Source of the DNA: a virus
Direction: 5' to 3' (one strand)
Length of the DNA stretch: 20,724 bases
Virus record (IMG/VR): IMGVR_UViG_3300032245_001426
Coordinates: 1 to 20,724 of that record
The position numbers were made by a program, and so were the translations under genes. Positions 1,451-17,226 of this stretch are shown one piece after another. Under the pieces are notes generated by a model. It did no database searches, had not been told where the DNA came from, and saw only the letters and a program-made list of their open reading frames with translations. The first letter of the stretch is position 1; each line of letters opens with the position of its first letter.

Positions 1451-2098
1451 GTGAGTAATAAAAGCAAAAATATAATCCTTTACACTACTGCAACTTTGAT
1501 TGCCGTAGGGTTGCTTTATACCATATTTCGGGTAAGTACCAAAAACTTTCTTGCAAATTCACCTTTCAGACGTAGAAGTGTTCGTATTGCAAAGCAAGAA
1601 CTTGAAAAGTGGAACAAACGCAAGGAAACATCATCAGAAACCCTACCTTATCTTCAAGAGTATTGGAGAACTTTAGGATGGAAAGATAATCAATGGTCAA
1701 CGGGTACGGCTTGGTCGGGTGCATTTATTTCTTACGTTTTCAGAAAAGCAAGAGCAACTGATGAAGATTTTAAATTCAGCGCAAGGCATTCAGTCTATAT
1801 TCAGAAAGCGATTGAAAATAAGAAAAACAAAAAGCGAAAAGGATTCAAAGGTTACAAACTTGATGAGAAAAAAGTTGAATTAGGTGATTTAGTATGCTAT
1901 TCAAGACAAGGTGGTGTCGATTACGATACAACGGGTGAATATATCAGTCATTGTGATATTGTAGTAGCTATTGATGGAGATAATGCAATAGGAATTGGAG
2001 GAAATGTATCTGATTCAGTAAGCGAAAGTAAAATACCTCTTCAAAATGGTTTTGTCAAAGAGGGTAAAAGAAGATTTGTCGTAATTAAAACGAAATAG
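1451..2098 (+). CDS. Membrane-anchored DUF2272-like (NlpC/CHAP-type fold) protein
   Basis: Starts at GTG 1451; 215 residues. An N-terminal membrane segment spans about 8-27 and is followed by a basic juxtamembrane stretch. The domain after about residue 45 resembles DUF2272 (related to CHAP/NlpC hydrolases): AWSGAFISYVFRKA (87-100), FSARHSVYI (109-117), LGDLVCYSR (144-152), ISHCDIVV (165-172) and IGGNVSDSV (182-190). CHAP-type enzymes carry a catalytic Cys at the start of the helix where WSGAF lies here, so the usual nucleophile is missing, as I recall for DUF2272 generally. H113, C149, H167, C168 and D169 are alternatives. It may cleave peptidoglycan peptides or only bind. It lies among other wall enzymes in the late operon. 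Confidence 0.7.
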   Translation: MSNKSKNIILYTTATLIAVGLLYTIFRVSTKNFLANSPFRRRSVRIAKQELEKWNKRKETSSETLPYLQEYWRTLGWKDNQWSTGTAWSGAFISYVFRKARATDEDFKFSARHSVYIQKAIENKKNKKRKGFKGYKLDEKKVELGDLVCYSRQGGVDYDTTGEYISHCDIVVAIDGDNAIGIGGNVSDSVSESKIPLQNGFVKEGKRRFVVIKTK

Positions 2099-2099
2099 T

Positions 2100-2471
2100 A
2101 TGTATGTAGGTGCAGATTCAAGCGGTGAAGGAGGAGCAAGTTATTTATCAAATCCATACGTCTTAATTGGCGGTGGAATTTTGATTTTGTGGTTCTTCAA
2201 ACGTAAAGGCATATTTAACTCAAACCCTAATGCTTTCAAAAGCGTAAAGGCTTTAGAGCAAAAGCGTAGATTAGAGATTCAAGCCAAAGCAAAGGAGAAT
2301 AAAGTTCCTGAAAAATTAGTGGCAGATGTTCAGAAAATGAACAAAAAAGAAGTTGCTCAAATGATTATAAGCAATCAGAAAATGTTGAATACAACGAAGA
2401 TGTCAAACGATGAGAGAAAGCAAATTTTGAATATGGTTGACTATCTTGAAAATGAGTTAGATAATAAATAA
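2100..2471 (+). CDS. Membrane protein with N-terminal anchor and helical tail
   Basis: A 123-residue product starting 1 base after the stop of the DUF2272-like gene, so translation is probably coupled. A Gly/Ser-rich start (residues 1-18) precedes a single hydrophobic segment at about 20-33 and a basic KRKG boundary. Residues 50-123 are charged and probably helical, with KALEQKRRLEIQAKAKEN, ending in DYLENELDNK. No family is recognised. The short N-terminus, single membrane span and helical soluble part resemble minor virion membrane proteins; this is inferred from layout only. Confidence 0.7.
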   Translation: MYVGADSSGEGGASYLSNPYVLIGGGILILWFFKRKGIFNSNPNAFKSVKALEQKRRLEIQAKAKENKVPEKLVADVQKMNKKEVAQMIISNQKMLNTTKMSNDERKQILNMVDYLENELDNK

Positions 2472-2481
2472 ATTTTTTGTT

Positions 2482-2613
2482 ATGGCAGAGGAAACAAAAT
2501 GGAGTGATAAAACTACAAAAGAGAAACTTGACATTGTATTTGTCGTTGTTGCTATTGTTGGTTTTTCATTAGGTGCATTAGTAAACTACCGATTGTTAAA
2601 AGGTAACAAGTAA
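2482..2613 (+). CDS. Small single-pass membrane protein (43 aa)
   Basis: ATG 2482 follows TTTTTTGTT and begins with MAEETKW, a start context (GTTATGGCA) shared with the 995 gene. Residues 1-16 are polar; residues 17-37 form one hydrophobic segment (DIVFVVVAIVGFSLGALV), followed by a short basic tail. The stop TAA shares its last A with the ATG of the next gene (TAATG), which supports a coupled, real gene. Function is unknown; a virion membrane component or an accessory lysis peptide is possible. Confidence 0.65.
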   Translation: MAEETKWSDKTTKEKLDIVFVVVAIVGFSLGALVNYRLLKGNK

Positions 2614-3275
2614 TGAAAGAAAAAGTACAAAGGCTTTCGATAGTTGTGCTACTTATGGCGGTCATTTTATTGGTTTGGGATGGTTGTAGTAAGGATGCAC
2701 AACTTTCGTTATTTAAGAAAAGGGTGGCAAACCTTAACTTGAAGGCTCAAGTATTTGAAGAAACTATCGGTAACGATAAATTACGACTTGCCGAACAAAA
2801 ACAAATCATTTTAAGTCAAGAAGATGCTATTGATAATGGCATTTTGATGATGAATGATTTTAAAAACGTAAGCAGTCAAGTTAGTGTAGAAACAAGAACG
2901 CAGATTGATAGCGTTTTTATTCCGTTTGAAACGATAAAAATTGATTCTCAAGTAGTTTATCAATGTATGGATAGAAGATTCAAACTGATAACTGATGAGT
3001 ACGGAATTTTCGGCATAACAAAACAAGATGGTGTCCTTTTGGACTCATTATATTTTGATGGTGGTTTGAGTATCACCATTGGAACAAAATCGGCAGGGTT
3101 TCTCAAAAAAGCAGAACCCGTTGTCGAAGTAAAATACACAAACCCATATATCAAAACCAAGTCTATGCAAAACGTGGTGATTCAAGAAGACTTGAAGTGG
3201 TACGATAGAAAGCGTAATTGGTTTGGTGTTGGTATAGGTGTTGGATTGATAGGAACATATTTAATTTTAAAATAG
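2613..3275 (+). CDS. Spanin-like protein, membrane signals at both ends
   Basis: A 220-residue protein with a hydrophobic N-terminus (about 9-22) ending in WDGC, so Cys25 could be lipidated, although the lipobox is weak. A predicted helical region (about 30-90) and a beta-rich middle (FIPFETIKIDS onward) follow. The C-terminus ends in a glycine-rich hydrophobic segment (about 203-219) after KWYDRKRN. An N-terminal lipoprotein signal plus a C-terminal membrane span is the architecture of unimolecular spanins such as phage T1 gp11, which link the two membranes in lysis. The protein is longer than that example, so a virion membrane protein remains possible. Confidence 0.55.
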   Translation: MKEKVQRLSIVVLLMAVILLVWDGCSKDAQLSLFKKRVANLNLKAQVFEETIGNDKLRLAEQKQIILSQEDAIDNGILMMNDFKNVSSQVSVETRTQIDSVFIPFETIKIDSQVVYQCMDRRFKLITDEYGIFGITKQDGVLLDSLYFDGGLSITIGTKSAGFLKKAEPVVEVKYTNPYIKTKSMQNVVIQEDLKWYDRKRNWFGVGIGVGLIGTYLILK

Positions 3276-3281
3276 ATAAAA

Positions 3282-3473
3282 ATGGCAGATAGTACGGCTA
3301 CGGCTACAACTCCCGATTTTGGTGTTTTTAACCAATTAGGTGATTATGGTATTTTGGGTTTAGCAACTTTGGCTTTAGGTTATGTAGGTTGGATTTTCAT
3401 TAAACGTCATCTTGCTGAAAAGGATGAGTTGAAAGAGAAACTTATGAAGCAAAACACTAAACGTAAGAAATAA
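3282..3473 (+). CDS. Small holin-like membrane protein, copy 1 of a tandem pair
   Basis: A 63-residue protein: Thr/Ala-rich start, then FGVFNQLGDYGILGLATLALGY with one membrane segment at about 22-41, and a very basic tail (KDELKEKLMKQNTKRKK). The next gene repeats the pattern with F-G-(V/I)-F-x-x-L-x-D-Y-G-I-L-G, so the two arose by tandem duplication. One span with a charged C-terminal tail is common in small holins and in virion membrane peptides; neither can be chosen here. The stop overlaps the next ATG by one base. Confidence 0.75.
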   Translation: MADSTATATTPDFGVFNQLGDYGILGLATLALGYVGWIFIKRHLAEKDELKEKLMKQNTKRKK

Positions 3474-3715
3474 TGTCTTTTGGTATTTTTGAGAGTTTAA
3501 CTGATTATGGAATCTTGGGATTTGCAGTCTTGGGATTAGGTTATTTGTGTTGGACATTCTTGAATCGATTGATGAAAAGCGAAGACGACTACAAGAAAAG
3601 AGTAGAGGAATTAGAGGGTGAATTAAGAGATGAGGTTTCCGATGCAATAAAAAAGAATACCGAGTCTTCCAAAACACTTAAAGAAACCATTTTGACGCTA
3701 TTTTCTAAAAAATGA
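3473..3715 (+). CDS. Small holin-like membrane protein, copy 2 of a tandem pair
   Basis: An 80-residue paralogue of the preceding gene. The FGIFESLTDYGILGFAVLGL stretch aligns without gaps to the first copy, and the following GY.(C/G)W.F(L/I) also matches. The membrane segment is at about 12-31. Unlike copy 1 it carries a longer, predicted coiled-coil tail (KRVEELEGELRDEVSDAIKK). The divergence in the tail suggests the copies have different cytoplasmic or internal partners. It starts on the last base of the previous stop and overlaps the next gene by 4 bases, so the three are likely translated together. Confidence 0.75.
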   Translation: MSFGIFESLTDYGILGFAVLGLGYLCWTFLNRLMKSEDDYKKRVEELEGELRDEVSDAIKKNTESSKTLKETILTLFSKK

Positions 3716-4101
3716 AAAAGAAAAGAAGAGTCATTTTAATTACGGCTATCGGTTTTATAGCAATAGTGTGTCTACAATTATTTTCAAGTGGGCATAAGCA
3801 CGTTGTAGTGGTTAAAGAGAATGTTTCATTAACAAATGATAATAAATCTCTTACAAGCCAAAATAAAGGACTTAAACAAAGTGTGAGTAAATTGAAATCC
3901 GAAAATCAACAACTTACTAATGAGTCTAATGAAATCAAACAAATAGTATCTGAAGTCATTAGTGATTTGGATAGCACAAAAACAATAGTAAAAAAGATTA
4001 AGAACGAATTAAATAATGAAAAGTCTATTAATCGTATTAACAATGGTGGTCGTGAATTTGAGTTTCAGCCAATCAAGTTACCCGATTCAGAAGGTAATTG
4101 A
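3712..4101 (+). CDS. Inner-membrane spanin-like (Rz-type) coiled-coil protein
   Basis: 129 residues: a basic KKKRR start, one N-terminal membrane segment (about 7-24), then a periplasmic coiled coil rich in Lys/Asn/Ser (about 36-110, with SLTNDNKSLTSQNKGLKQSV) and a short tail EFQPIKLPDSEGN. This is the i-spanin layout. The 3' 86 bases overlap the start of the next gene in another frame, and that gene encodes a secreted protein, which is the classic embedded Rz/Rz1 gene architecture. Overlap at the 5' side is ATGA-like with the holin-like gene. Function is inferred from topology and gene nesting, not from sequence identity. Confidence 0.65.
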   Translation: MKKKRRVILITAIGFIAIVCLQLFSSGHKHVVVVKENVSLTNDNKSLTSQNKGLKQSVSKLKSENQQLTNESNEIKQIVSEVISDLDSTKTIVKKIKNELNNEKSINRINNGGREFEFQPIKLPDSEGN

Positions 4102-4567
4102 TGGTGATACTTTTGTGATTTTACGAAAAAGCCAAGCAGATACAATAAATAAAATTTTTGAAAGTCAGAAAAAAAAGATTTCTGATGCTAAAGTATTATT
4201 GCTCGCAAAGGATTCTATATTGAAGCAAAAAGATTCATTGCTTAATATAGCTTATGCTTCTACTGCTAAATATGATTCTTTGAATGCTAAATACACCAAT
4301 ACATTGATGTTTTTAGATTATATAGAAAAATGGGTATATGATAGGGCGAAAGAAGGCTCATTCTTGTATTATTCGTATGATAGCACTTGTATTGAAGCAA
4401 TAGACCTTTCAGATTATGAAGTAAGAAAAAATGATTATACGGGAGCCATATTTTTTTATAGAATAACTGAAACTCCATTTATACACAAAAAGAAAAATGA
4501 CTCTTTTAGAAAGGGATGGGAACAAGAAATTACAAGAACGAATAGACCAAAAATTTATAAATTATGA
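4016..4567 (+). CDS. Secreted protein nested in the Rz-like gene (outer spanin candidate)
   Basis: ATG 4016 lies inside the 3' end of the Rz-like gene, in a different frame. The 183-residue product has a clear signal peptide (MKSLLIVLTMVVVNLSFS, then Q/SSYP), a KVIDGDTFVILRKSQADTIN segment, a predicted helical/coiled stretch with repeated KDSILKQKDSLL (about 60-75), and a C-terminal Tyr-rich domain. There is no Cys at the cleavage site, so it should be cut by signal peptidase I and not lipidated. It is much longer than Rz1. Gene nesting points to an outer spanin partner; the missing lipobox argues for a different way of holding the outer membrane. Confidence 0.6.
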   Translation: MKSLLIVLTMVVVNLSFSQSSYPIQKVIDGDTFVILRKSQADTINKIFESQKKKISDAKVLLLAKDSILKQKDSLLNIAYASTAKYDSLNAKYTNTLMFLDYIEKWVYDRAKEGSFLYYSYDSTCIEAIDLSDYEVRKNDYTGAIFFYRITETPFIHKKKNDSFRKGWEQEITRTNRPKIYKL

Positions 4568-4848
4568 GAAAATTATTTAGAGAACTTATTTCAGACGATA
4601 ACAACATCAATGAACAAGCGTTTGTTGGTGTGATTTCGTTTTTTGCTATGTTATTTGTTTTACTTGTAGATGTAATTACGGGTGTTTTGAGTAAAGAATT
4701 AATCATCAAGGAGTTTATCTTTGATGGCTTTATGCTACTTACTTTGGGTGCTTTTGGAATTACTACGGCAGGTAGAATTTTTAACCTAAAGAAAAAAGCA
4801 AAAGAAAACCAAGAAGAAGAAGAAGAACAAATAGAAAATATTGATTAA
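4564..4848 (+). CDS. Holin-like two-pass membrane protein
   Basis: 94 residues with a short charged N-terminus (RKLFRELISDDNN), a first membrane segment at about 20-42 containing a buried Asp, a second at about 51-73, and a highly charged C-terminal tail (KKKAKENQEEEEEQIEN). Two membrane helices, small size, charged tail and position directly before an M15 peptidase gene are typical of class II holins. The start overlaps the previous stop (ATGA). I consider this the best holin candidate of the window, ahead of the tandem small proteins at 3282-3715. Confidence 0.7.
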   Translation: MRKLFRELISDDNNINEQAFVGVISFFAMLFVLLVDVITGVLSKELIIKEFIFDGFMLLTLGAFGITTAGRIFNLKKKAKENQEEEEEQIENID

Positions 4849-4858
4849 AATAAAAGTT

Positions 4859-5347
4859 ATGCAATTAAGTACAAATTTATCATTAGCAGAAGTAACTCGA
4901 AGTGAAACTGCAAAACGTAAAGGAATTAGCAATATGCCTACTCCCGAACATATTGAGAACTTTAAAAAATTGGCAGAGAACGTATTTCAGCCAATTCGTG
5001 ACCATTTCGGTTGCCCAATTCATATTTCATCGGGTTATCGCTCTGAAGCCTTAAATAAGGCTATCGGTGGTGCAGGAAAAATGGTGAATGGAAAGTATGT
5101 CCCTTCTTCTCAACATTGCACGGGTGAGGCGATTGATATTGATATGGATGGCACATCAATTACCAATAAGCAAGTTTTTGACTATATTAAGGACAACCTA
5201 AATTTTGACCAACTTATTTGGGAATTTGGCACGGATGCTAACCCCGATTGGGTTCACGTTAGTTACGAATCTACGGGAAAACAACGTAAGCAAGTTTTGA
5301 AAGCCGTTAAGAAAGGTAGCGCAACATCTTATGTGCCTTTTAAATAA
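4859..5347 (+). CDS. M15-family peptidoglycan peptidase (endolysin candidate)
   Basis: A 162-residue zinc peptidase of the M15 (Peptidase_M15_3-like) family. Zinc ligands are visible as H86-x6-D93 (QHCTGEAIDID) and H133 (WVHVSY); E122 in LIWEFG fits the catalytic acid position, and ISSGYRS (56-62) is the usual family motif. It would cut peptide cross-links or stems of peptidoglycan. No signal peptide or membrane segment is seen, so it probably needs the holin. ATG 4859 is preferred over an upstream TTG at 4841 because it has the AAGTTATG context seen at other starts here. It follows the holin-like gene by 10 bases, forming a lysis cassette. Confidence 0.88.
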   Translation: MQLSTNLSLAEVTRSETAKRKGISNMPTPEHIENFKKLAENVFQPIRDHFGCPIHISSGYRSEALNKAIGGAGKMVNGKYVPSSQHCTGEAIDIDMDGTSITNKQVFDYIKDNLNFDQLIWEFGTDANPDWVHVSYESTGKQRKQVLKAVKKGSATSYVPFK

Positions 5348-5353
5348 TTGTAA

Positions 5354-6124
5354 GTGGCAGTAAAACTCAACATAAATAACGCAATAGACCTTTTCAAAGA
5401 AAAAGGTGGTGATACTCCTTTTGAGTATTCATTACGGAAAACTTTGGAATATGCTGAAAAAGATAAACGAATTACTTCTTTAAGTGATTTAGCGTATTTG
5501 TTGGCTACTGCGGAGGTTGAGAGTAACTATTCACTTCAAAGGTGGGAGGCAGATTATTTATGCGGAAAACAAGGGTATGCTTATCAAGATAGACCTTGTC
5601 AGAAAGCACTTGACTATTATAAGTCTACAAGTGGAGGCAAACAAAACTATTACAATTTAGGTACTGATAAACGTGGATTACCTTACTTCGGTAGAGGTTT
5701 AATTCAATTAACGGGCAAAAGTAATTACGAAACCTACGGCAAAAAGGTTGGAGTCGACCTATTAAATAATCCCGATAAAGCACTTCAAAAAGACATTTCT
5801 TATGATGTGGCGGTGGCTTATATGACTACTAAACGAGGTGGATATGGAAATAAAAGCACTTTTGATTTAGCAAAGGAAGGAAACTTCTCTTCAGCACGAA
5901 AAAGTGTTAAAGGAAGTAGTAGCGGTTCAAATTCAGTAAAGTCAGATTACGACAAATGGATGTCTATTTTGCAAGACAAAAAAGTCAATGCAAGAGTTGT
6001 AAGTGGCTCAACATCATCAATATCAAAAGAAAAGCAAGGTAAAAAAATAATACTTGCAACATTTATTTCACTAACTTTGATAGGAATAAGCATTTACGCA
6101 TATTCTTATTTTAAAAAAAAATAA
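5354..6124 (+). CDS. GH19-type muralytic enzyme with C-terminal membrane anchor
   Basis: Starts at GTG 5354, 6 bases after the M15 gene; 256 residues. The catalytic domain (about 20-205) has the GH19 chitinase/lysozyme signatures ATAEVESNY (51-59, with a candidate catalytic Glu at 54) and YFGRGLIQLTGKSNY (111-125), then LLNNPDKAL. A Ser-rich linker (about 185-230) leads to one membrane segment at about 231-252 and a KKK end. Soluble phage GH19 endolysins lack such an anchor; an anchored form fits a virion membrane protein that opens the wall during entry, or a membrane-tethered lysin. That choice is inference; the enzyme family is clear. Confidence 0.85.
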   Translation: MAVKLNINNAIDLFKEKGGDTPFEYSLRKTLEYAEKDKRITSLSDLAYLLATAEVESNYSLQRWEADYLCGKQGYAYQDRPCQKALDYYKSTSGGKQNYYNLGTDKRGLPYFGRGLIQLTGKSNYETYGKKVGVDLLNNPDKALQKDISYDVAVAYMTTKRGGYGNKSTFDLAKEGNFSSARKSVKGSSSGSNSVKSDYDKWMSILQDKKVNARVVSGSTSSISKEKQGKKIILATFISLTLIGISIYAYSYFKKK

Positions 6125-6128
6125 TACA

Positions 6129-6329
6129 ATGAATAAAAAAGCAATCATTTGGGGTGTCGTCATCGTAGGTGTCGCAGTCGGTGGCTACTTCTTATATAGA
6201 AACATAGTAACAACCTCTAATAATCCCGAAAAAAATACTCGTAGGATTAAAATAAAGAGAAACAAAAATATTTCTACATCGCAACTTGAAGAACAAGGTT
6301 CACAAGATAATCAAGACATCGAACTCTAA
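6129..6329 (+). CDS. Small single-pass membrane protein
   Basis: A 66-residue protein beginning MNKKAIIWG, with a membrane segment at about 5-23 (valine- and glycine-rich) followed by a strongly basic region (RRIKIKRNKN) and a polar Gln/Asp/Glu tail. The start and membrane segment resemble other proteins of this operon in style. It lies 4 bases after the GH19 gene and 13 bases before the transglycosylase gene. The basic region could touch nucleic acid or phospholipid head groups inside a virion, but nothing here proves it. Unrecognised family. Confidence 0.65.
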   Translation: MNKKAIIWGVVIVGVAVGGYFLYRNIVTTSNNPEKNTRRIKIKRNKNISTSQLEEQGSQDNQDIEL

Positions 6330-6342
6330 TTAGTTAGTTATT

Positions 6343-7080
6343 ATGGCAACGTCTACAATATCCGCACCTATTTCCAACTTCTATTCTCCATCTGCTTGGG
6401 GTAATAGAGCGTCTATTAAAGCAATGTTGGAAAAAATCAATAGTCAGTATGGAAGTTACATCAAAGTGGCTTCGGAAAACTCAAAAATCCCTGCTAAACT
6501 TATAGCATCTTTTATTGCGGTAGAAAGTGGTGGTAAAGCAAGCGTAGGTTATAATGCTAAAGAACCTGCATTATCTTCAAAAACTACGGGTTTGATGCAA
6601 TGGAATCGTGATTATGCTGATGAAACACTTGAAACGGAATACAAACAAGGTCGTTTGACTCCCGAAGAAAAAAGTATTTTAGCCAAATATGGTATCAAGT
6701 TTGATGCAAACGGACAAACCCGTGCTATAACTGCTCAAGACCAAATTAAACCCGAACTTAACATTTTGATTGGCTCAATGCTTTTAGGTCAATATGCAGA
6801 TAGTTATATCGGTGGTGGTAAATCAGTAATGGTAAATGGTGTTAGAAGAAATTGGGCAATAGATGAAAATAATGGTCAACTTCGTCTTGACCGAATTATT
6901 TCAGTATATAACGGAGGTTGTTGCGGTGCAATAGGTGATAGAGCCACCAAAGGAAGCCATCCAAATGCAAAAGCGTTAGCAGATGCTCAACCTTTTCCAA
7001 CAAACACTTATATTGCTAAAATGTACGGCATCAATGGAACATTAGATATTTTGTCTAAAGAACTTTCAAACATACTATAA
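6343..7080 (+). CDS. SLT-type lytic transglycosylase
   Basis: A 245-residue protein whose middle matches the lysozyme-like SLT fold: PAKLIASFIAVESGG with candidate catalytic Glu61, then TTGLMQWN (81-88), and a late ISVYNGG (186-192) in the place of the usual AYNGG. It would cleave the glycan chain of peptidoglycan to form anhydro-muramic ends. There is no signal peptide or membrane segment. The stretch between GLMQ and YNGG is longer than in minimal SLT domains. As the last gene of the late operon it sits just before a strong terminator. A virion-associated entry enzyme is the likeliest role, with endolysin as the alternative. Confidence 0.8.
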   Translation: MATSTISAPISNFYSPSAWGNRASIKAMLEKINSQYGSYIKVASENSKIPAKLIASFIAVESGGKASVGYNAKEPALSSKTTGLMQWNRDYADETLETEYKQGRLTPEEKSILAKYGIKFDANGQTRAITAQDQIKPELNILIGSMLLGQYADSYIGGGKSVMVNGVRRNWAIDENNGQLRLDRIISVYNGGCCGAIGDRATKGSHPNAKALADAQPFPTNTYIAKMYGINGTLDILSKELSNIL

Positions 7081-8619: not shown

Positions 8620-8652
8620 AACGGATAGAACAAGTGTAAAAAACTATCCGTT
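8620..8652. repeat. Inverted repeat downstream of recT
   Basis: AACGGATAG (8620-8628) and CTATCCGTT (8644-8652) are perfect 9-bp arms with a 15-base loop. The right arm includes part of the recT stop codon. On the minus strand the hairpin lies directly before the terminator, so it may protect the 3' end of the mRNA or uncouple ribosomes from the terminator. Confidence 0.6.
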
Positions 8653-9685
8653 ATTCTTTTGGTGTTGGAAACCAACCCATACTATCTTCGGGTTCTTCAT
8701 CATCATTAATGTAAGTGTCTTGAGCATATTGATTAGGGTCTTCTTCTGCAAACAAATCTAAAGCAGGTTGCTCATCTATTTCGATAGTAGAAAAAGATTG
8801 TTTTTCAACCTTCTCTTTTTCTTGGTCAAGCATTGCCTCTATTTCAGCTTCAGTAAAATCCATAGATGTATCATTTTTTGATACCTCATTGTCAATAACT
8901 GATTCTTGAACCACCTCTTCTTTTGATTCTTCTTCAAACTCGAAAGCAGTCATTAAAGAAGGTTTCTTTTTTGATGATAGAAGAGGTTTTGAATCAAATG
9001 AACCACCACCAACTAACGCATTGTTCTCATTTTCGATTTGTAACGCAGTTGCAAGAGCCTCTGAAGGGTTTCCGCTTATCAGCATCTTAAAGTGTCGTTT
9101 AATGACAACTTTCTTAATCATTTCCTCTTCCCAAGTTTGCCAAGCCGAAAACTTATTTGAACTACCTTCAGAAAGTCTTTTTACCTTTTCAATTTCCCAC
9201 ATAGGCATAAACTCAAACACTACTTCTCCATTTGGCAAGGTTGCTCTTGAATAACATCCAATTCTACCACGAGATTTATGTTCTTCTTCGGTTTTAGCAA
9301 AACAAGGTTTGTGACTGATTTTGTTATACGCTACATCGTAGTCAAAATCTTCATCTTCATAGACTATATGAGCAGAAATAGATTTGATGCAGTTGTTATC
9401 TCTTAACATCGCTACAAGACCCATATAAGAGAAGTCAAGAACGCATTTATTCTTTCGAGGAACAAGATAAGCCAAACGCATCACGGGATTCAATGTAACG
9501 CTTGTTCTTGCCACATTAACAACGGCATTCAAAATACTTTGAGGGTCGCATCTTTGTAGTGCATCAGAGTTTTGAAAGATTTGCATTGCAAACCCTAATT
9601 CGCTTGTCGCTTTTTCGGGATTGATTGCGGTGAATTTTGTGTGTGCCTCTTTTAAAGAGGATTTCCAACTTGTTTGATTACTCAT
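8651..9685 (-). CDS. recT: RecT-family single-strand annealing protein with acidic C-terminal tail
   Basis: 344 residues. The first about 235 match the RecT family: ALQRCDPQSILNAVVNVART, then SVTLNPVMRLAYLVPRKN, LDFSYMGLVAML and KKVVIKRHFKML. The protein binds single-stranded DNA and anneals complementary strands, working with a 5'-3' exonuclease, here probably the nuclease at 11273 in the same operon. The C-terminal ~100 residues are unusually acidic and low in complexity, ending DDEEPEDSMGWFPTPKE, somewhat like the acidic protein-docking tail of SSB. Most RecT proteins I know are about 270-300 residues. It is the last gene of the operon. ATG 9685 follows the leader AACAAGTAAAA also used by the gene at 10975. 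Confidence 0.9.
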   Translation of the reverse strand: MSNQTSWKSSLKEAHTKFTAINPEKATSELGFAMQIFQNSDALQRCDPQSILNAVVNVARTSVTLNPVMRLAYLVPRKNKCVLDFSYMGLVAMLRDNNCIKSISAHIVYEDEDFDYDVAYNKISHKPCFAKTEEEHKSRGRIGCYSRATLPNGEVVFEFMPMWEIEKVKRLSEGSSNKFSAWQTWEEEMIKKVVIKRHFKMLISGNPSEALATALQIENENNALVGGGSFDSKPLLSSKKKPSLMTAFEFEEESKEEVVQESVIDNEVSKNDTSMDFTEAEIEAMLDQEKEKVEKQSFSTIEIDEQPALDLFAEEDPNQYAQDTYINDDEEPEDSMGWFPTPKE

Positions 9686-9710: not shown

Positions 9711-10217
9711 TTAATTATCTGATTGAACCTCTTCGTCTACCTCTTTTGAGTTTAGTAAAGTTGATAGACTATCTATTTCCTCCTTATTTTTTGTGACTTC
9801 GCTTTGGAAATAGTCTAAAATTTTTGTTTCAGATATTGATTTGATTTCGGGATTAACGTCATTGAAACGCTCATTGTGTTGACTTACAAAAAGTTCAGCA
9901 TCAACTATTGATGGCGCATTAACCAAGACTTTTTCTTTGATTAGATTGTCTTCAACCCCAAAAAACTCTTGTTTGACTAAAAAGAATTTGTCATATACTT
10001 CTTCTTGTTTGAATACAATCCCATCAACATTAAACTTATCTATTTTAATGATTGTAAATTCACCACCACGAATAACACTACCAAGATGCTCATAAACATT
10101 TGCCTCGCAGTCCGTGAAGGTATGTCCATCGAATAGATAAGGTTCAACAACTCGCTTTGCTTTTCCGTTTTCTGATTGTTTTGTGTAACTTACTTTTACA
10201 AGAAATAATTGTTTCAT
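9711..10217 (-). CDS. DUF4494 family protein
   Basis: 168 residues matching my recollection of DUF4494, a family of Bacteroidota and their phages: FLVKVSYTKQSENGKAKRVV, then EPYLFDGHTFTDCEANVYEHL, and a later repeat of the same theme, KFFLVKQEF...KEKVLVNAPSIVDAELFV. The two halves look like an internal duplication of a strand, helix unit. The C-terminus is polar and acidic. The function of the family is unknown to me. Position between RecT and the Acb2-like gene, with 4- and 25-base spacers, puts it in the early recombination operon, so a DNA-metabolism role is possible. Confidence 0.7.
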   Translation of the reverse strand: MKQLFLVKVSYTKQSENGKAKRVVEPYLFDGHTFTDCEANVYEHLGSVIRGGEFTIIKIDKFNVDGIVFKQEEVYDKFFLVKQEFFGVEDNLIKEKVLVNAPSIVDAELFVSQHNERFNDVNPEIKSISETKILDYFQSEVTKNKEEIDSLSTLLNSKEVDEEVQSDN

Positions 10218-10221
10218 TTTT

Positions 10222-10485
10222 TTAATTTTTTAATCCTTTAGCAATTCCTTTAACTCCATACATTTGAGCAGTTTCTAAATGCTCCATTGCGATTTTAAAA
10301 CATCTGACTTGTTCCATATATTCATCTCCCGTAAGTGGTGAGTCAATTCTTTCTTGTTCACAAAAATCAATAGCAAAAGCCATCATTTGTTTGAATACTG
10401 CAATCTTATCATCAAATGAAGGATTGAAGTTAATGTGACATCTTTTTTCACCAAGTGTCATCGGTTTTTGTGTAGGTTGTTCCAT
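10222..10485 (-). CDS. Acb2/Tad1-like cyclic-nucleotide sponge (anti-CBASS/anti-Thoeris candidate)
   Basis: 87 residues. The N-terminal LGEKRCHINFNPSFDDKIAVFK pattern and the C-terminal helix with AMEHLETAQMYGVKGIAKGL match the small helical-hairpin family that includes phage anti-CBASS protein Acb2, where G-x-x-R-x-x-x-x-F-N-P-S opens the protein and a helix of the A...YE.A.MWAVKA type closes it. Family members form oligomers that bind and sequester cyclic di- and trinucleotides or gcADPR made by CBASS and Thoeris, blocking abortive defence. The length agrees. Ligand choice cannot be predicted here. It lies in the early operon, which suits an anti-defence gene. The call is from pattern memory; residue-level ligand contacts were not verified. 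Confidence 0.68.
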   Translation of the reverse strand: MEQPTQKPMTLGEKRCHINFNPSFDDKIAVFKQMMAFAIDFCEQERIDSPLTGDEYMEQVRCFKIAMEHLETAQMYGVKGIAKGLKN

Positions 10486-10513: not shown

Positions 10514-10975
10514 TTAAGGTGTTGTTACAAAGTTTAATGATGCGGTGCTACCACTCATTTTGAAAGTGTAAATTGCTCCATCGTTGCACTCATCGGTATC
10601 AGTAATTCTTATCTTTACTGATGTTGCGTTCTTGAAGTCAGCGAGAAAATCTTCGTTCTTAATGTCCCAAGTGATAAAGGCACGATTTTGGTCTTCGTTT
10701 ACTTGGCAAATACGACCATACTTTTTGTTCACTCCTGCTACTTGAAAAGACAATTCGATGAAAACGGGTTCGGAACAAAAGTAAACTCCACCCATCATTA
10801 ATACACCTGCGCTCTCAAATTGCTCTAACTTTAAGAAAGGTCTTTGACCATCTTCGGTGTAAGCAATTTTTGTTGGTTCATCAAAGCCGTTGTCAATCTT
10901 TTTAACAACCCATTGACCGAAAGCACTACTTGATAGGGAAAGTGCCAATCCTACTGAAAATAATAACTTTTTCAT
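10514..10975 (-). CDS. Secreted protein of unknown function (early operon)
   Basis: 153 residues with a clear signal peptide (MKKLLFSVGLALSLSSSAFGQ, cut near AFG/Q). The mature part is beta-rich with several Cys (YFCSEPVF, GRICQVN, TDECNDG), which may form disulfides in the periplasm. No family is recognised. A secreted protein made with recombination and anti-defence genes could act in superinfection exclusion or envelope modification; this is only a suggestion. ATG 10975 follows the same AACAAGTAAAA leader as recT. Confidence 0.7.
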   Translation of the reverse strand: MKKLLFSVGLALSLSSSAFGQWVVKKIDNGFDEPTKIAYTEDGQRPFLKLEQFESAGVLMMGGVYFCSEPVFIELSFQVAGVNKKYGRICQVNEDQNRAFITWDIKNEDFLADFKNATSVKIRITDTDECNDGAIYTFKMSGSTASLNFVTTP

Positions 10976-11272: not shown

Positions 11273-12160
11273 TTAAAGGTAAATTTCTTGAATTGCAGGT
11301 ATGTCCGTAAAATGCTTACAACTATCCGCTAAAGGACATTCTTTGCATACGGCAAACTTTGGGTATGGTGTCCAACCTTTTGACATTGTATCATCAAGGA
11401 ACTTTTTGACATTCAATAGGTTATTGTAGTGTATTTGAAGTGTTGCTTCATCTACATTAACCTTAAAAACTTTGTACTCCCAATCATTCTTGCTACTGAA
11501 TATCATAAAATAGAAAGGAATGTCTTCAATACCCCATTCATATTTGGCTAATAACTTGTAGTGAATTGCTTGAATCATTAAGCCATCTTTTTCTTCGATA
11601 GACTCATCTGCCCAACCATATTCACTCCATTTATCGTGTAATAAACCGCTTGTCTTTAGGTCAATGATTATACGCTTCTTGTTAGCCACCTTTGTCTTGA
11701 TGTTATTGTCGTGTGCAATAATATCCGTTATACCGCTATATTTTGGATTTGTGAAGGTGAAACCCGTTTGCTCAATGGAAAAGTTAAGACGTTTCATTAT
11801 ACGCTTAAAATTCTCTACTTGCGCATCCATACGCTGATAGTCAATAGAAGGCTTTCCCGTTTTAAGTAAAATTGGTTCGGGAGTATGTCCATCACGAGGT
11901 AATTGACCCGTTGCTTTGTATTCAAAGTAATTACCTAACTCTTGAGCCTCTGAAGAAGGAAATTCTACGCTCTTTGTGATGTATTTCGCTTCTATGCGTA
12001 AACCACACTCTTCTTTGAGTTTGTACTTGTACAACTCTTTAACGAGGCTTTGAGAAAGTTTAGGTGTAATGTTGTTGAGGTCTAATTTGACTTGAGCCTT
12101 TTTAATCTCATTTCTTTTCTCCTTTTCTTTGTAGGCTTTTTGAGGAATCTTTTTCGACAT
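11273..12160 (-). CDS. PD-(D/E)XK exonuclease with Cas4/AddB-like Fe-S cysteines (RecT partner)
   Basis: 295 residues. Nuclease motifs in order: LGNYFEY (75-81), YSGITDII with D146, IIIDLKTSG with D167-x-K169, and Q197 in MIQAIHYKLL. The only four cysteines are C52 and a C-terminal C272-x2-C275-x5-C281, the same pattern as the 4Fe-4S staple of Cas4, AddB and Dna2 nucleases. It should be a DNA exonuclease making the single strands that RecT anneals, as in RecE/RecT and phage lambda-type systems. ATG 12160 follows an A/C-only leader and lies inside the 3' end of the upstream gene. The family call is confident; Fe-S binding is predicted from Cys spacing only. Confidence 0.85.
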   Translation of the reverse strand: MSKKIPQKAYKEKEKRNEIKKAQVKLDLNNITPKLSQSLVKELYKYKLKEECGLRIEAKYITKSVEFPSSEAQELGNYFEYKATGQLPRDGHTPEPILLKTGKPSIDYQRMDAQVENFKRIMKRLNFSIEQTGFTFTNPKYSGITDIIAHDNNIKTKVANKKRIIIDLKTSGLLHDKWSEYGWADESIEEKDGLMIQAIHYKLLAKYEWGIEDIPFYFMIFSSKNDWEYKVFKVNVDEATLQIHYNNLLNVKKFLDDTMSKGWTPYPKFAVCKECPLADSCKHFTDIPAIQEIYL

Positions 12161-12842: not shown

Positions 12843-13064
12843 CTATTTATTTTTTAAAATAAATTTATTTGAAAAGTTTGCGCTCCAAACAAACACTCTG
12901 AAAAGCATTACTGAAGGACTATGTTTTTTCTTTTTAGTTTGCTTGTATCTCAATCTCATCAAGGGATATAGCAATGTCCACATAACAATAATAATAACAC
13001 CAAAAATTATTTCCAAAAATAAAAAAACTCTATGAAAAATTTTCAATCCAATCTCACTACTCAT
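12843..13064 (-). CDS. Small membrane protein (73 aa)
   Basis: Starts in an ATGA overlap with the stop of the upstream gene. One strongly hydrophobic segment at about 13-36 (FLFLEIIFGVIIIVMWTLLY) is followed by a very basic stretch (RLRYKQTKKKKH), which places the C-terminus in the cytoplasm. Unrecognised. It is the last gene of the minus-strand region 4 operon; an AT-rich spacer with the next operon's promoter follows. Confidence 0.6.
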   Translation of the reverse strand: MSSEIGLKIFHRVFLFLEIIFGVIIIVMWTLLYPLMRLRYKQTKKKKHSPSVMLFRVFVWSANFSNKFILKNK

Positions 13065-13591
13065 AGTGTCATAGTTTTAATGTCAAAAAATTCGTTATTG
13101 GCAATGTTTTGATGATTACCTACTTCCATTTCGACTACATAAATGTCATCGCTAATAGAATCAATATAGGTACTTTTCAATTCGTTTCCGTTAAAAAGTA
13201 AATATCTTTTGAGTCTATCTTTTAGAAAGTTGGCAAAACCAAAATGGTCAACGTATATGAGATAGGTATCAGAATGAGGAACGTAAACAAGTTTGTTTAC
13301 TTTTTTATTACTTAAATCCAAATCCAAAGTGTAGACGTTTTTCTCTAACTCAATCAAATCACGCTTAAAGTCTGATTCAGTAATCTGATACATCACGGAA
13401 ATACCCATACAAACGTTATTAAGTTCACGCATAAATTGCTTTAAACATCTTTTATAGTTTGGGCAAAAATTATCCCCATACTCAACGTAAGTTGCGCCTT
13501 CATTGGTGGTAGATATATTAGGTGGTGTCAAAACTTCTTTTACTACCTTATTCATATTCATATTCATATTCATATTCATTGCCTTTTTCAT
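13061..13591 (-). CDS. Hypothetical protein with a (Met-Asn)5 repeat at its N-terminus
   Basis: 176 residues. Starts MKKA, then five Met-Asn repeats coded by a perfect hexanucleotide repeat, then KVVKEVLTPP. The rest is a mixed domain with GDNFCPNYKRCLKQFMREL and YLIYVDHFGFANFLKDRL; two Cys lie close together. No family recognised. The true start could be any of six in-frame ATG codons, since each repeat unit offers one. It follows the XRE-type gene by 2 bases and overlaps the membrane-protein gene by 4. Confidence 0.65.
   Translation of the reverse strand: MKKAMNMNMNMNMNKVVKEVLTPPNISTTNEGATYVEYGDNFCPNYKRCLKQFMRELNNVCMGISVMYQITESDFKRDLIELEKNVYTLDLDLSNKKVNKLVYVPHSDTYLIYVDHFGFANFLKDRLKRYLLFNGNELKSTYIDSISDDIYVVEMEVGNHQNIANNEFFDIKTMTL
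13550..13579. repeat. Five perfect copies of a 6-bp repeat
   Basis: ATTCAT repeated five times (ATGAAT on the minus strand), in frame within the 5' end of the gene at 13061-13591. The unit is a multiple of three, so copy-number change would not shift the frame but would change the number of start-capable ATG codons. Confidence 0.95.
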
Positions 13592-16439: not shown

Positions 16440-16549
16440 TATGGTGTGAGGGGAAAACACCCGTTCCATTTGATTGTGTTTTGCATTTTTTTCGTTTTCT
16501 CCAAGCAATAATTTGAGGAGGTCATTCGTGTCCTCCTCATTTTGTTTTA
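16440..16549 (+). ncRNA. Structured leader or small RNA candidate (~110 nt)
   Basis: Between the -7 element (16426) and ATG 16573 lies a stretch without a convincing gene. It has a 5' hairpin GGTGT/ACACC (16443-16447 with 16457-16461) and ends in a terminator-like hairpin TGAGGAGG/CCTCCTCA (16514-16521 with 16532-16539) followed by TTTTGTTTT. CTCC (16499-16502) could pair instead with GGAG (16517-16520), offering an alternative fold that would break the terminator. This fits either a stand-alone small RNA or an attenuator in front of the phosphatase gene. No known RNA family is recognised. The call is structural inference only. Confidence 0.45.
16514..16548 (+). terminator. Terminator-like hairpin upstream of the PAP2 gene
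   Basis: The 8-bp stem TGAGGAGG/CCTCCTCA with a 10-base loop (TCATTCGTGT) is followed by TTTTGTTTT. It lies 25 bases before the PAP2 start codon, on the coding strand, so it would terminate or attenuate the leader transcript before the gene is reached. Confidence 0.65.
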
Positions 16550-16572
16550 ATTTAGCCTATAAATTCCCCAAT

Positions 16573-17226
16573 ATGAATGATTTAAGATATGGCAATCTAA
16601 CCAAAGAACTACAAGCCAAGTTATCTGAAGAAAATGTTTTCACTCAATATATGGGTGAATTTGCTTTCATAGATTATCCTAACTATGCTGAAAGTAGTGA
16701 AGAAATAATCGAAATAATCGAAACGCAAAAAAAGTCACGAGAAAGCGGTAAATGGCAGGCTATAAAAGACTTTTGTGATTTGTGGGATGAAGATATAATG
16801 GGGGCATTGAAAAAAACGCTCACACGGCTAAATATTCCCTTTGATGAAGATTATATTGAATATCTCACTCAAGTATCAGATGATTTAGGGGCATTGGTTG
16901 TTCAACTGAAAAATCATTACCAAAGACCACGACCTTATCAAGTGGCTTTTTATACCGAGCAAGACTTACATTCTTACTATTCCTATTCAGCAGTATCACC
17001 TTCATATCCTTCGGGTCACGCTTGTCAAGCATTATTCTTATTTCACTTAATTGGATTTCACTACGAAGACAAAAAAGAAGAACTACTAAAAGTAGCTAAA
17101 CAAGTTGCAGATTCTCGTATCATTTTAGGTGTACATTACAAATCAGATAACCTATTTGGTTTTCAAATAGTTAAGGAACTTCTATTAAAGGATGACATTA
17201 AAGAAAAATACTTCCCGAATGTCTAA
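16573..17226 (+). CDS. Soluble PAP2-superfamily acid phosphatase
   Basis: 217 residues from ATG 16573; the open frame extends upstream through the leader RNA, but those codons are not a credible gene. All three PAP2 motifs are intact: K113-x6-R120-P121 (KNHYQRPRP), P146-S147-G148-H149 (YPSGHAC) and S181-R182-x5-H188-x3-D192 (SRIILGVHYKSD). The first His is the expected acid/base and the last His forms the phospho-intermediate. There is no signal peptide and no membrane segment, so it acts in the cytoplasm, unlike most bacterial PAP2 enzymes. Substrate unknown: nucleotides, second messengers or lipid headgroups. It is preceded by a structured leader and followed by 11-bp repeats that begin inside its stop region. 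Confidence 0.85.
   Translation: MNDLRYGNLTKELQAKLSEENVFTQYMGEFAFIDYPNYAESSEEIIEIIETQKKSRESGKWQAIKDFCDLWDEDIMGALKKTLTRLNIPFDEDYIEYLTQVSDDLGALVVQLKNHYQRPRPYQVAFYTEQDLHSYYSYSAVSPSYPSGHACQALFLFHLIGFHYEDKKEELLKVAKQVADSRIILGVHYKSDNLFGFQIVKELLLKDDIKEKYFPNV

Follow-up and report, generated by a model that had tools for sequence, protein, structure and literature searches.

What does a small open reading frame sitting next to recombination genes do for the virus that carries it? The question arises in a stretch of 20,724 nucleotides, here called the window, from a 20.7-kb viral contig. On its minus strand an ORF with an ATG start encodes a protein of 87 aa, MEQPTQKPMTLGEKRCHINFNPSFDDKIAVFKQMMAFAIDFCEQERIDSPLTGDEYMEQVRCFKIAMEHLETAQMYGVKGIAKGLKN. 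A first-pass annotation, made from the sequence alone, had read this product as an Acb2/Tad1-like anti-defence protein on the strength of two motifs, and both are present: "GEKR...FNPS" spans residues 12-23 and "A..HLETAQMYGVKG", in the C-terminal helix, residues 66-80. The gene and its neighbours are as follows.

10222..10485, minus strand: acb2-like gene, Acb2/Tad1 hairpin family (PF24729 E 1.5e-5; AlphaFold2 pLDDT 93.5)
10237..10338, minus strand: PF24729 profile positions 32-58 (second helix), from a six-frame search
9711..10217, minus strand: DUF4494 protein (PF14902 E 1.5e-24), 4 bp downstream of the acb2-like gene
8651..9685, minus strand: RecT single-strand annealing protein (PF03837 E 2.7e-28; phrog_148 E 3.9e-48)
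10514..10975, minus strand: 153-aa product whose start resembles a signal peptide (nothing matched in Pfam or PHROG)
11273..12160, minus strand: probable exonuclease, also in this gene block (phrog_69 exonuclease E 5e-6; no Pfam match)

The order is acb2-like gene, DUF4494, then RecT, so that both genes named by the first-pass annotation do lie directly downstream; the probable exonuclease is further upstream. No close viral relative of the RecT protein was found. The gene for the 153-aa protein, also part of the recombination block, is the immediate upstream neighbour of the acb2-like gene, at a distance of 28 bp. Elsewhere in the window, positions 1451-7080 (plus strand) hold a row of cell-wall-acting genes with DUF2272, peptidase M15, GH19 chitinase-type and SLT transglycosylase domains, and a PAP2-superfamily phosphatase-like gene lies at 16474-17226 (plus strand). 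The ORF at 13061-13591 (minus strand) has the N-terminus MKKAMNMNMNMNMNK, with a short ATGAAT-type repeat that could vary in length.

By sequence comparison, the ORF at 10222-10485 is a real gene, because unrelated viral contigs carry homologues (60-78% identity) in which the motifs are invariant or nearly so. Scans of viral contigs returned 11 and later 110 relatives of the protein, 80 of which were retained, and an alignment of 67 sequences was built in which the closest 27 distinct sequences account for the identity range just given. G12, N21, K32, A36 and A66 are invariant in this alignment, and F20, P22, I39, D40, R61, E71, A73, M75, V78 and K79 nearly so.

Assignment to a family requires looking beyond the single protein. 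PF24729 (Acb2_Tad1_hairpin) is its sole Pfam match, at 25.5 bits (E 1.5e-5) against a cut-off of 27 bits. The first-pass annotation had proposed that a profile score below the family threshold should speak against its reading, and taken literally the score of the window protein does so. Its relatives tell otherwise: those scanned singly (62-74% identity) score 30-39 bits, above the cut-off, and for each of the 67 homologues in the alignment PF24729 (E <= 0.001) is the only family hit. Searches with the window protein alone gave only chance hits in the PDB and no match in NCBIfam, whereas a profile of the 67 homologues found T4 Vs.4 (Acb2, 7uq2) among solved structures with an E value of 1.4e-5. 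When hhalign was used to compare the 67-homologue family with 15 T4/PaP2-type Acb2 proteins aligned independently, the probability was 97.7% over 60 columns. T4 Acb2 itself matches PF24729 and phrog_717, and the window protein is a weak match to the latter.

The predicted fold agrees. Built on the 67-sequence alignment, the AlphaFold2 model reached pLDDT 93.5 and pTM 0.81; with just 9 close sequences as input, confidence was much lower, at pLDDT 68. The resulting protomer has a short N-terminal helix (residues 11-15) followed by two long antiparallel helices (26-47 and 53-85), the two-helix hairpin that had been forecast for it; about 25 residues precede the hairpin, and the model has no beta strands. 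According to a review, the Acb2 protomer consists of one short helix at the N-terminus and a pair of long antiparallel ones, and Tad1 carries an N-terminal antiparallel beta-sheet (PMC12043709); the model fits the former and not a complete Tad1. In a Foldseek search of predicted viral proteins, two named Acb2/Tad1 hairpin proteins came first, with probability 1.00 and E values of only 1.2e-3 and 6.1e-3. Against the PDB, Foldseek gave nothing significant and no Acb2, which we regard as a weak negative because a lone helical hairpin has little fold signal.

Taken together, relatives above the Pfam cut-off, the T4 Acb2 profile hit, the profile-profile comparison and the confident helical-hairpin model support a place for the product of 10222-10485 in the Acb2/Tad1 hairpin family, as a diverged member whose assignment is secured via its relatives. 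The family is already known; the member itself is new and diverged in sequence.

How closely does it resemble the proteins whose function has been established? Like Acb2 (anti-CBASS 2; the T4 Vs.4 and PaP2/PaMx33 gp24 type), it consists of one small domain (about 85-95 aa) with PF24729 and the same helix layout in the model. In the hhalign alignment, K32 of the window protein falls on K26 of PaP2 Acb2 and R61 on R67, positions that we take to be ligand-contacting in PaP2-type Acb2; K32 is kept in 67/67 homologues and R61 in 66/67. With Tad1 (Thoeris anti-defence 1), it has the hairpin domain in common by Pfam's definition; unlike Tad1, its model lacks the sheet.

The differences from T4 and PaP2 Acb2 are considerable. 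Identity is too low for detection by single-sequence search. The GY(R/K) loop with its tyrosine (Y8 in T4, Y11 in PaP2) is invariant in that tyrosine only in the T4/PaP2 alignment; the whole clade to which the window protein belongs instead has LGExR..FNPS, a region that hhalign left unaligned. One might guess that F20 is an aromatic substitute for the loop tyrosine. At the position of T4 T68, 50 of the 67 homologues have T, and the window protein and 13 others have E. In T4 Acb2, Y8A is described as binding-deficient and as abolishing function, and T68M as lowering affinity (PMC12657230). The replaced loop and the change at the T68 position suggest that ligand preference may differ from that of T4 Acb2. 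The literature that we searched contained no binding data for the FNPS-loop clade.

The genomic surroundings of the relatives bear on function, and also on the claim that the gene belongs to a recombination operon. Many of the relatives' contigs have little DNA in common beyond the acb2-like region, and the other window genes have almost no counterparts near it. We reject the recombination-operon position as a conserved feature: DUF4494 occurs in L018 only and RecT in L074 only. The argument for early expression in the first-pass annotation leans on this same neighbourhood, which is not conserved in relatives. A hairpin protein repurposed within the operon, for instance as a partner of RecT or an exonuclease and with no nucleotide sequestration, would account for the position of the gene here, with DUF4494 just 4 bp downstream and RecT and a probable exonuclease nearby, as well as for the homologue in an elemo phage that lies near an Erf-like annealing protein. 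Set against this, the window's RecT is found in 0/33 close loci (L017-L049) and its DUF4494 in 1/33, at a distance of 2.7 kb, and the gene is found in phages with hardly anything else in common, its repeated overlaps being with sponge genes instead. We consider such repurposing very improbable.

What does recur beside the relatives is a pair of anti-Thoeris families unrelated to the Acb2-like protein, Tad2-like (PF11195) and RyR-domain/RyDEP (PF02026), whose genes adjoin, overlap or are fused with theirs. Phage RyR-domain proteins are reported to degrade or sequester 2'/3'cADPR and to defeat Thoeris (PMC13232231, preprint). Tad2-like genes are present in 6/51 records, and their starts are never more than about 350 bp from the acb2-like gene. 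The two reading frames overlap by 1-4 bp in L021, L032, L033, L035 and L048. RyR-domain genes are present in 9/50 records. They overlap the acb2-like gene in L017, L027 and L028, and in L063 the gene comes 40 bp downstream; L045 is the sole record in which the two are far apart. In L025 the acb2-like gene is followed after 337 bp by a 205-aa ORF (L025:1820-2437) that fuses RyR and Tad2-like domains, and in L059:153-749, L068:4611-5261 and L088:4533-5243 a single ORF joins RyR to the Acb2/Tad1 hairpin (PF24729), in each fusion with both domains above the Pfam cut-offs.

The nominal product of chance closeness is 1.7e-10 for six Tad2 hits and 3e-12 for eight RyR hits, figures that are post hoc and ignore kinship. 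Kinship there is: L021, L032, L034 and L044 share 6-8 kb, L025 and L035 share 4 kb, and L059, L068 and L088 are related. After allowing for it, Tad2 is left with at least four unrelated backgrounds and RyR with about five. This coupling of acb2-like relatives with Tad2-like and RyR genes in unrelated phages is new here; a literature search that covered few subscription papers found no published report of Acb2-RyR fusions. We regard this recurrent overlap or fusion as strong, if indirect, evidence for a place of the acb2-like gene in signal-disarming cassettes, and it lends further support to the anti-defence role first proposed for the window protein.

Some other genes keep similar company. 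In four loci a 104-aa gene and the stop codon of the acb2-like gene overlap by 1 bp (L036:5246-5560, L038:2370-2684, L046:5240-5554 and L049:5243-5557); the 104-aa gene is a candidate for a further anti-defence gene, and its homologue in L018 gave no Pfam hit. A protein of ~93 aa, GroES-like by eye, recurs near the acb2-like gene in about 15 loci (L019:4687-4968 and relatives), with 0 Pfam or PHROG hits.

We judge it very probable that the gene encodes a diverged Acb2/Tad1-hairpin sponge, which as a putative hexamer would bind cyclic nucleotides, most likely CBASS signals. Homology and gene coupling make the sponge function likely. The protein would most likely fold as the predicted hairpin with its short N-terminal helix, and protomers would assemble into a hexamer. 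The hexamer would then take up small signals of the cyclic nucleotide type, most likely CBASS cyclic di- or trinucleotides, without cutting them; with the signal captured, the effectors of the infected cell would stay off and the phage would be protected. Counting against a sponge are the score of the window protein below the Pfam cut-off, the Foldseek search of the PDB without Acb2, the absent GY(R/K) tyrosine, the E at the T4 T68 position, and a window that was searched for Tad2-like and RyR genes and contains neither.

The same fold could instead be adapted to Thoeris signals of the ADP-ribose type (2'/3'cADPR or relatives) and not to CBASS cyclic oligonucleotides. The anti-Thoeris nature of both partner families (PMC13232231) and an N-terminal loop unlike that of T4/PaP2 Acb2 point that way. 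The coupling may, however, equally reflect complementary targets, with one protein for CBASS and its partner for Thoeris; moreover, the equivalents of K26 and R67 are retained, and the window protein lacks the additional beta-sheet of Tad1, which does bind such signals. On balance we hold a Thoeris-tuned sponge to be unlikely and favour the sponge for CBASS signals.

A Bacteroidota host is likely, because the named phages nearest by the acb2-like protein mostly infect Flavobacterium and the named-phage relatives by DUF4494 infect Bacteroides/Parabacteroides. Scans of cellular genomes with the two proteins returned no close relative and no host. That the host has CBASS or Thoeris is plausible.

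As a tentative proposal, which we put forward as somewhat doubtful, phages may carry an interchangeable "signal-sponge cassette" in which the FNPS-type Acb2 hairpin, Tad2-like and RyR proteins are swapped, translationally coupled or fused, and by which CBASS and Thoeris would both be disarmed from one locus. The FNPS clade would have re-built its loop with a ligand preference of its own, and the 104-aa gene would be a further anti-signal factor.

For the family, these results extend the Acb2/Tad1 sponges to a clade with a different N-terminal loop, spread across unrelated phages and likely including phages of Bacteroidota. The couplings and fusions with Tad2-like and RyR genes are independent genomic evidence of function, and gene coupling of this kind is a simple route to further anti-defence genes, such as the overlapping gene in L036, L038, L046 and L049.
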